Positions 37,754 through 40,533 of a stretch of DNA of 51,699 nt are shown piece by piece. The first letter of the stretch is position 1; the number at the start of each line of letters is the position of its first letter. Both the position numbers and the translations under genes were made by a program. Source of the DNA: an uncultured Lachnospiraceae bacterium (GTDB lineage Bacteria; Bacillota; Clostridia; Lachnospirales; Lachnospiraceae); NCBI GenBank assembly GCA_947629565.1, contig CANREG010000015.1:1-51699 (forward strand), read 5' to 3'. A model generated the notes under the pieces. It saw only the letters and a list, made by a program, of their open reading frames with translations. It was not told where the DNA came from and did not search any database.

Positions 37754-38305
37754 ATGAAATTCAGATATTTTTTAAGGGGATTAGGCGTCGGTATTGTATT
37801 TGCGTCTATCCTGTTTTTGACAGCCTATCGGGATAACCTTTCTTCCTATAAGCTGACGGATGATGAAATTATTAAACGGGCCAAATCTTTAGGCATGGTA
37901 GAGGCGGACAGCAAGATTGGGAGTCTGCTTAACGAGCATGACAATACATCGGAGACCGTAGATGACACAAAACCGGAACAGGAAACTTCTGTGGAACCGG
38001 ATACCAGGAAAGAGGCTACGGAGATTACGGAGACAACGCAGCCGACAGAGGAACAGGCAGATTCTGCCAGCGGGCAAACGGAAGAAAATGACGGGGACAG
38101 CGTAGAGATTACCATTGAGCGCGGCTTGTCTTCATATCCTGTATGTCAGAAACTTCAGGAATTGGGAATCATTGAAAGTGCAGAGGAATTTGATACCTAT
38201 CTGGTAAAAAACGGATATGCTGACCGTATGAAGGTAGGAACCCACAAGCTAACCAAAGGAATGGATTTTAAAACCATTGCGGAAACGATTTCCGATCCCC
38301 AATAA
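37754..38305 (+). CDS. MltG/YceG-like N-terminal domain protein, membrane anchored, no catalytic domain
   Basis: 183 residues: an N-terminal TM helix (about 7-25), an acidic Thr/Glu-rich linker (about 55-115), and a C-terminal LysM-like part (VEITIERGLSSYPVCQKLQE and VGTHKLTKGMDFKTIAETIS). The latter resembles the start of endolytic transglycosylase MltG (YceG), but the catalytic domain with its Glu is absent, so glycan cleavage is not expected. It may bind peptidoglycan. It starts 2 bases after the previous stop with GAGGAG upstream and is the last gene of the fla/che cluster. The terminator-like left tip of the large inverted repeat follows. Confidence 0.6.
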   Translation: MKFRYFLRGLGVGIVFASILFLTAYRDNLSSYKLTDDEIIKRAKSLGMVEADSKIGSLLNEHDNTSETVDDTKPEQETSVEPDTRKEATEITETTQPTEEQADSASGQTEENDGDSVEITIERGLSSYPVCQKLQELGIIESAEEFDTYLVKNGYADRMKVGTHKLTKGMDFKTIAETISDPQ

Positions 38306-38344
38306 CCCCATTTATACCACCAACCTTATATAGTGACTCATTCC

Positions 38345-38380
38345 GGCGGATATCCTTCTCTTATCCGCCTATTTTTATTT
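38345..38380 (+). terminator. Probable terminator of the fla/che cluster (left tip of the fold-back)
   Basis: Stem GGCGGATA/TATCCGCC with a 9-base loop (38345-38369), followed by T, A and TTTTTATTT. It is 39 bases after the last flagellar-cluster stop. The mirror copy at 38796-38820, read on the minus strand, is followed by TCCTTTTTT and could end leftward transcripts. Confidence 0.65.
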
Positions 38381-38820
38381 ATCAATATGCCGCAGGATAA
38401 TCCTTTCCCATTTTCCCGCACTGCCATCGGTTTTAAGAAATCCTGCTGCCGGAGCCTCCTGCATATTAGATTGCACGTGCTTACGAAGAACTCGCACCGG
38501 GAAGGGGTGTCTGGGAAACATTTGCAGCCCCTTTGAAAACGCCGGTACTTGCGAAGGCCCTGTTATAAATCTGTATCAGATGAATTATTAACAGGGCCTT
38601 CGCTTATGTACCGCTGCGTTTTCAACAGAGCGCAAGCGTGGCTGCAAAATGTTTGCCCAGCACCCCAAACCCGGTGCTCAGACACTTCTTCGCACGTGCA
38701 ATATGCAGGGGACTCCGGCAGCGGATTTCTAAAAAACCGCGTGTCGGGAAAATCGGGAAAAGGATTACCTAGCGGCAATCATTTACAAAAAAGGAGGCGG
38801 ATAAGAGAAGGATATCCGCC
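38345..38820. repeat. 476-bp imperfect inverted repeat (fold-back element)
   Basis: Left arm 38345-38565 and right arm 38589-38820 are reverse complements along their length, with small gaps, around a 23-base centre. Perfect collinear blocks: 38345-38370/38795-38820 (26 bp), 38445-38454/38713-38722 (10), 38458-38467/38700-38709 (10), 38473-38480/38692-38699 (8, GCACGTGC), 38516-38523/38647-38654 (8), 38533-38542/38616-38625 (10), 38551-38565/38589-38603 (15). Each tip is itself a hairpin (GGCGGATA, 9-base loop, TATCCGCC), and the right arm has an inner hairpin AGCACC...GGTGCT (38659-38678). It fills most of the 665-base gap; open frames in it lack start signals and known motifs. I see no flanking duplication. 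Identity unknown: MITE-like element, two head-to-head dispersed repeats, or a long hairpin RNA. Confidence 0.9.
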
Positions 38821-38882
38821 GGGGAGGGAACGTATAGAAGGGTGGAGGGTGGGAAGGGATATTGGGGACGGTAAATTTTACC

Positions 38883-38970: not shown

Positions 38971-39423
38971 ATGATAGAAGCAGTAAGCTGTGGTGGTGTG
39001 GTAATCTTCAGAGGTAAGGTGTTGTTACTTTATAAGAATTATAAGAATAAGTACGAAGGCTGGGTATTGCCGAAGGGTACGGTAGAGGAAGGCGAAGAAT
39101 ATAAGGAGACCGCCCTTCGGGAAGTACGGGAGGAGACCGGGGTAAGCGCCCAGATTATCAAGTATATCAACAAAAGTAATTATACCTTTAATACCGCATA
39201 TGATGTCGTGAATAAGGATGTACATTGGTATCTGATGATGGCTGACAGCTATTACAGCAAACCTCAAAGAGAGGAATATTTTATGGATTCCGGTTATTAC
39301 AAATATCATGAGGCTTACCATTTGCTGAAATTTCCCAATGAGAAGCAGATATTGGAGCAGGCGTATGGAGAGTATCAGGATCTAAGACAGAGCAATCTAT
39401 GGGGTTCTAAGAAATATTTCTAA
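38971..39423 (+). CDS. Nudix (MutT-like) hydrolase
   Basis: 150 residues with a complete Nudix box G-x5-E-x7-R-E-x2-E-E-x-G between Gly36 and Val58 (KGTVEEGEEYKETALREVRE then ETGV). Such enzymes hydrolyse a nucleoside diphosphate linked to another group; the substrate is not clear from sequence. LPKGTVEEGE is shared with diadenosine polyphosphate and related hydrolases. ATAGGAGGAAC precedes the ATG. It is a single-gene unit: own promoter, terminator after it. Confidence 0.92.
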   Translation: MIEAVSCGGVVIFRGKVLLLYKNYKNKYEGWVLPKGTVEEGEEYKETALREVREETGVSAQIIKYINKSNYTFNTAYDVVNKDVHWYLMMADSYYSKPQREEYFMDSGYYKYHEAYHLLKFPNEKQILEQAYGEYQDLRQSNLWGSKKYF

Positions 39424-40422: not shown

Positions 40423-40443
40423 CATTTTCGTTGGTTTCAACAT

Positions 40444-40527
40444 GCCGGCGTGTCGGAATTGGCAGACGAGGCAGACTCAAAATCTGTTGGTGGCAACACC
40501 GTATGGGTTCAAGTCCCATCGCCGGCA
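40444..40527 (+). tRNA. tRNA-Leu, anticodon CAA
   Basis: 84-nt class II tRNA. Acceptor GCCGGCG (40444-40450) pairs with CGCCGGC (40520-40526), discriminator A at 40527. The anticodon stem GCAGA/TCTGT encloses loop CTCAAAA, giving anticodon CAA (codon UUG, Leu). A long variable arm (GGTGGCAACACC) and a T arm with GGTTCAAGTCC are present. CCA is not encoded. Own promoter upstream and terminator downstream, single-gene unit. Confidence 0.97.
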
Positions 40528-40533
40528 TTGATA

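Follow-up and report, generated by a model that had tools for sequence, protein, structure and literature searches.

The locus at 38345-38820 of the window (the whole stretch of DNA analysed, 51,699 nucleotides of genome G000) raises two questions: what kind of element folds into so long a hairpin, and what keeps its two arms complementary. A sequence-only reading had described an imperfect palindrome of 476 bp, and the palindrome proved real. Positions 38345-38369 and 38796-38820 form tips of 25 bp that are exact reverse complements, the left one being a small hairpin by itself, and the central perfect 15-bp stem was found as described, with 38551-38565 pairing with 38589-38603. Folded as RNA, 38340-38825 reached -298.9 kcal/mol compared with -144.9 (sd 6.1) for shuffled sequences (z -25; 0/100 shuffles as low). 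The length of 476 bp was too short. Pairing continues past the tips to 38287-38877 (positions 1443-2033 of locus L001, the window copy), giving in a 1-kb MFE fold an imperfect palindrome of 591 bp with 218 pairs, of which the outermost may be partly chance because the chain rule accepts 25-base gaps. On its left this hairpin includes the final codons of an ORF that ends at 38305; on its right it comes close to the region upstream of an ORF whose start is at 38971. Its left outer arm (38287-38344) is copy-specific, overlaps the last codons and the stop of ORF 37754-38305, and pairs with the right outer arm (38821-38877; left versus right score 21, 0/200 shuffles as high). The right outer arm is unlike the arm found in the same-genus genome G020 at the orthologous flank. 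The left inner arm (38370-38518) is common to the long-type copies of G000 and of G020, and the right inner arm lies at 38645-38795.

Whether the palindrome has a second copy had been left open; the 476-bp query matched at least 34 separate places in its own assembly. These were counted from 64 match rows, many of which are both strands of one copy, and some pieces found at the ends of contigs may together make up a single copy. A similar set of copies is present in G020. When 25 copies of the own genome were folded, 22 gave hairpins of 530-684 bp, while L024, L027 and L028 gave 222, 270 and 460 bp; the start of a contig truncates L014, the most perfect of them.

Conservation in relatives was traced to one part of the element. 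Seven other genomes of the genus matched the DNA query solely within positions 310-363 of 598, and aligning these matches revealed a conserved core. In the window the core lies at 38519-38644 on the plus strand (107.6 bits with model R1; covariation). It consists of a basal stem, a side hairpin with a GNRA tetraloop (38628-38638), a stem broken by a two-base bulge (CT or TT, 38614-38615), a little varied helix of CGGTAC (38543-38548) with GTACCG (38608-38613), and a variable apical stem-loop (38551-38603) that holds the perfect 15-bp stem; all these parts are given for the plus strand. The arms had been said to match over their whole length. They are paired, but they are not fully symmetric, since the GNRA-loop hairpin and the bulge occur on one side as extra sequence, and the core therefore has a strand. 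Both features are present in nearly all cores examined: the loop is GNRA in 68/70 distinct cores, and the bulge is CT in 51 and TT in 12 of the 63/70 in which the search pattern was found. The apical loop in the core of L204 (G013:C79) contains extra sequence, which may be a second loop nested in it or a duplicate.

Core-model matches numbered 53 in G000, and all 26 genomes of the genus carry the core, with 1-83 matches per genome. It was found in 57/392 genomes of the order, belonging to 27/173 genera, all within the family of the window (Lachnospiraceae), and in 10/391 genomes of the class at E 1e-5, in the same family only. There was no match in 335/392 order genomes at the setting used; absences at order and class level are soft because stricter filters were applied and few candidates were scored per genome, so weak matches may be missed. 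With regard to a phage or plasmid origin, viral contigs held no exact match to one core pattern and no plasmid matched the window core. Nothing on this element appeared in searches of an open-access library on long palindromes, MITEs, REP elements or invertible repeats in Lachnospiraceae/Butyrivibrio. Several loci carry two cores. Pairs in opposite orientation, about 235-355 bp apart from start to start, lie in L034 (1500-1603/1735-1841), L091 (1501-1601/1768-1868) and L238 (702-793/1057-1147), and in L240 two equal-scoring cores (718-808 and 949-1039) lie 231 bp apart on the same strand inside a repeated GC-rich stretch.

Compensating changes were observed in alignments of the core. In a first alignment 94.3% of cells were paired, with 31 two-sided cells and 11/22 pairs showing two-sided change (0/500 shuffles); with 77 distinct rows, 93.1% were paired, with 304 two-sided cells and 21/22 pairs with two-sided change (0/500 shuffles). 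These percentages lean upward because the alignments were fitted to, or chosen by, structure. Conservation in place was assessed in G042 and G087, two genomes of a second genus (g18). In six pairs of copies, with gaps left out, identical bases amounted to 540/550 in the core, 176/203 and 188/207 in the arms (364/410), 365/410 and 349/415 in the near flanks (714/825) and 3616/3904 in the far flanks. The core is therefore conserved in place, more than anything around it. Its strand shows no preference relative to neighbouring ORFs at 34 loci (++ 7, -- 8, +- 8, -+ 7, 4 undetermined). Mismatches in the core stems leaned slightly to G.U (24, versus 18 A.C) in 79 rows, the last 8 of 87 having been dropped. 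A search of Rfam 15 gave nothing over gathering score; below it were mir-5316 (27 of 70 bits) and CrcZ (19.9 of 95), and 12 further loci were without a match. A known Rfam RNA was rejected as candidate, there being no covariance-model match over threshold. The core would be conserved for a reason other than arm copying; most likely a protein, of the host or of the element, recognises its single-stranded fold, which is our guess. An RNA role of the core is possible in view of the GNRA loop, a typical RNA feature. More speculatively, the side hairpin may be one of the extraordinarily stable mini-hairpins of DNA.

The arms behave differently. Outside the genus, the stem beside the core is in most copies peculiar to that copy, with no shared sequence (by eye). 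The types of mismatch discriminate between causes of the pairing, because selection for an RNA made from one strand should leave more G.U than A.C. Such an excess was absent: arm mismatches in the own lineage were 109 G.U versus 103 A.C, and outside it 83 versus 122 (p 0.008), where L082 alone contributed 1 versus 19. The count took in 79/85 alignments, six with a score under 14 having been dropped; eight weak opposite-strand or cut-off model matches and loci with identical or very short flanks had been left out before. As a control, mismatches were counted in 12 tRNA genes located in the window and in the G020 and G087 stretches, in their acceptor and T stems, with the acceptor frame picked by most Watson-Crick pairs. 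Here G.U was found 14 times and A.C not once in 144 pairs.

Orthologous copies revealed how the arms change. Nine copies with continuous flank matches between G000 and G020 were identified among 795305 bases of G020 stretches. Over 2092 base pairs they showed 93 one-sided and 21 two-sided changes, versus 2.2 two-sided changes expected, and 19/21 of these lead from one Watson-Crick pair to another. The one-sided changes comprised 41 of G.U type, 29 of A.C type and 23 others, in a pair list taken from an RNA fold that admits G.U, not A.C. Most double changes (16/21) lie in arms shared with other copies. Five lie outside the shared tips, where ~0.6 would be expected; one of them is a broken pair, and the other four, in which pairing was kept, lie just 4-21 bases past the tip, a closeness that slightly lowers our confidence in template switching. 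In 4/9 orthologous copies (L006, L008, L010 and L012) the interior is inverted. Turning it round raised identity from 0.88-0.90 to 0.95-0.98, and the core strands agree with the inversion of all four; in the five same-orientation copies, used as a control, the same operation lowered identity in 5/5. The second genus showed inversion in 0/6 orthologous copies of G042/G087, and five double changes versus 1.4 expected, two of them Watson-Crick. At L330/L326 the core is unchanged at 91/92 positions; the adjoining arm differs between the species, and each version looks self-complementary (by eye).

The window copy itself presents a case of REARRANGEMENT and probable rewriting. Its left flank is orthologous to that of one G020 copy and its right flank to that of another, and L004 has the reciprocal flanks, which is what an inversion between two copies gives. 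Two copies of the long type mark the breakpoints of an inversion-type exchange. G020 is a metagenome assembly and G000 looks like one, and misjoins at repeats are possible. The NUDIX-like gene at 38971-39423 has no core-model match around it in 21/23 genomes of the genus that have the gene. In nearly all of those genomes the end of a transpeptidase-like gene lies directly upstream of it (by eye), and G020 is likewise arranged apart from the element. G020 therefore probably keeps the older gene order. The right outer arm of the window copy pairs with the sequence now on its left (score 21, 0/200 shuffles); with the left arm of the G020 copy whose right flank is orthologous to its own, it does not (8, 186/200). 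Compared with the G020 orthologue of the window's left neighbour it scored 14 (9/200). The G020 arm fits the coding end of its own left neighbour (18, 0/200), the arm of L004 fits its new neighbour weakly (12, 19/200), and the arm of the G020 Y-F copy does not fit its neighbour (10, 113/200). The simplest reading of these scores would be that arms were rewritten after the exchange; it is possible that an ancestral arm state was later lost in G020. A second rearrangement between element copies of G000 and G020 involves L005, L007 and L030 within L138.

A MITE-like fold-back element moved in trans had been among the suggested explanations, and part of this proposal stood. In the sister species G013 and G014 of the same genus, the core lies inside MITEs of ~211 bp with ends like those of a DUF772-type insertion sequence, flanked by target duplications of 10-13 bp; on the long window-type copies neither was recognised. 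Exact TAGGNNNTTGCGAAAC ends occur on elements of both sister species. In the G013 stretches, many of them cut by contig ends, at least one end of type TAGGNNNTTGC(G/A)AAAC was present in 14/20 and both ends in 5/20. Among the matches listed for six genomes, MITE ends were many in G013, G004 and G014 and few in G005, G002 and G007. Examination of 24 exact-end elements from G013, G014, G004, G007 and G002 revealed the target duplication in 12, six each from G013 and G014, and 9/12 carry the core (model match). The other 12/24, among them the element of G002 and each of the five G004 elements, had no target duplication, and some elements with these ends are without core. Three elements of 51-68 bp (L209, L214 and L215) consist of little beyond two terminal repeats and hold no core. 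A related insertion sequence of 1753 bp with matching ends was found in G002 (L207 1524-3276, G002:C9). It encodes a 491-aa protein with Pfam DUF772 at 51.4 over 23.1; the NCBIfam IS1182 model scored this transposase at 77.5 bits, below its cut-off of 270. Transposases of this type were detected in 4/26 genomes of the genus at E 1e-30, and not in the other 22, including G000, G020 and G013. The window copy showed neither a recognisable terminal repeat nor a target duplication, and inspection by eye revealed no target duplication beside the long copies. GCGAAAC end remnants were seen by eye beside short-type cores of G000 (L243, L246). In G042, G335 and G325, the arms adjoining the core are mostly without common ends (by eye), L236 with similar ends being an exception. 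In g18 an empty-site comparison was possible: G042 has an element between two genes where G087 has a small GGGCG...CGCCC hairpin (L302 near 1480-1520), and a pre-insertion site and a deletion remnant alike fit this.

We consider the element to be, more likely than not, a dispersed non-coding hairpin that is kept by replication template switching and that carries a separately conserved core of ~90-126 nt. A replication fork that meets the palindrome would let the polymerase switch template between arms or strands. Through the switch, one arm would be rewritten from the other, at times with copying continued into the flanking DNA, and the interior would at times be inverted; copies of the element would also recombine with each other. 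Under template switching, arm pairing would be mainly a by-product of mutation and not of RNA function. That pairing is under selection, as had been proposed from the clustering of mismatches, is possible, but arm-to-arm copying was judged the better explanation. Part of the arm pattern could also stem from recombination or gene conversion, whether among arms or among copies, in view of the 16/21 double changes in shared arms. A competing reading is a simple MITE that derives, as a non-autonomous form, from a DUF772-type (IS1182-like) insertion sequence; the palindromy would then represent long terminal repeats and the core a conserved passenger. The exact ends in G013/G014, the duplications, with the core in most of the elements that have them, and the DUF772 element of G002 all speak for this, and we regard it as a serious possibility that nevertheless falls short of probable. 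Half of the exact-end elements are without duplication, the window copy has no recognised ends or duplication, and common ends are mostly missing from the arms in G042, G335 and G325. MITEs usually conserve their ends; here the centre is conserved and not the ends. Furthermore, the transposase was not found in 22/26 genomes of the genus, and the concerted change of the arms would be left unexplained.

A functional long-hairpin RNA, with pairing kept by selection, would account for the very stable fold, the compensatory changes, the GNRA loop and a core that covaries and is conserved in place. It is nonetheless improbable. G.U shows no excess over A.C in the arms, nor clearly in the core, while the tRNA control gave 14 versus 0; the interior is inverted in 4/9 orthologues, the 34 loci show no strand preference relative to ORFs, and Rfam holds no match. 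For the arms, the earlier suggestion of a long hairpin RNA is thus unsupported, A.C being about as frequent as G.U. REP/BIME, ERIC and similar palindromes are dispersed and intergenic, and a REP/BIME-like reading, in which the core is a putative binding site for a host protein spread over the chromosome, matches the position between ORFs, the dispersal, the freedom of orientation and the conservation in place. As an analogy this earlier idea stood; beyond the analogy it did not, and we hold it to be unlikely. Copy number varies from 1 to 83 per genome of the genus, 335/392 genomes of the order are without a match, and the Y1 transposase, the partner of REP elements, was not found in G000 (85% complete), G020 and G005 by a search for PF01797, which did detect it in 13/26 genomes of the genus. 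A Y1/REP transposase as driver was rejected, being absent from the search of the own genome. Finally, the palindrome might be an assembly artefact or chance. The G000 assembly comprises 100 contigs and is 85% complete, and L014, the most perfect of its copies, sits where a contig begins. Against this, dozens of copies occur in separate assemblies, the core occurs in 27 genera and the fold has a z of -25, so that the chance of an artefact is negligible and the doubt about existence had already been refuted. A chance or single-copy palindrome was rejected on the at least 34 places and the same z.

Returning to template switching, homogenisation of arms and inversion of spacers at inverted repeats by this process have a precedent in PMC8604942, and the creating and repairing of stems has one in PMC8794818. 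Our element resembles such quasipalindrome mutation in arm homogenisation, multi-base compensatory change and spacer inversion. The spacer inversions tabulated in PMC8604942 concern arms of 10-16 bp in yeast genes, whereas here the arms measure tens to more than 200 bp, belong to a dispersed bacterial element and seem to run on into neighbouring sequence. Compared with those tabulated cases, this is most likely a known process at a larger scale. The likeness to DUF772-type (IS1182-like) MITEs holds in the sister species, by terminal repeats, target duplications, a non-coding interior and a related autonomous element (G002); the difference lies in the conserved centre, the variable ends and the window-type copies without recognised ends. 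REP/BIME and ERIC elements are likewise dispersed, intergenic and palindromic, but the present element is much longer, its arms are unique to each copy and no Y1 transposase was found in its own genome. With GNRA-bearing structured RNAs it shares covarying stems, the tetraloop and a conserved bulge, but it has no clear G.U preference, no constraint of orientation and many copies per genome.

It is usual to read compensatory changes as proof that an RNA is functional. A family with covarying long stems, in which G.U counts, orientation and inversions oppose RNA selection on the arms, is a possible warning case and could serve as a test bed for mutation-driven versus selection-driven covariation. 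From the element one may also learn how palindromes grow and flip and how they shuffle the chromosomes of bacteria; in addition, it contributes a folded motif that is unmatched in Rfam 15 and common in one family of gut bacteria. A bolder proposal, which we put forward as doubtful, is that the core represents a new kind of nucleic-acid site. Hairpins dispersed throughout the family, free in orientation, would have a single-stranded fold that a protein reads and that selection keeps in place at each locus, while the replication fork would rewrite the arms from local DNA. Each site would then become a palindrome of its own that extends itself, flips and directs inversions of the chromosome. On the right-hand side of the element, the window also carries a tRNA-Leu(CAA) gene at 40443-40528.
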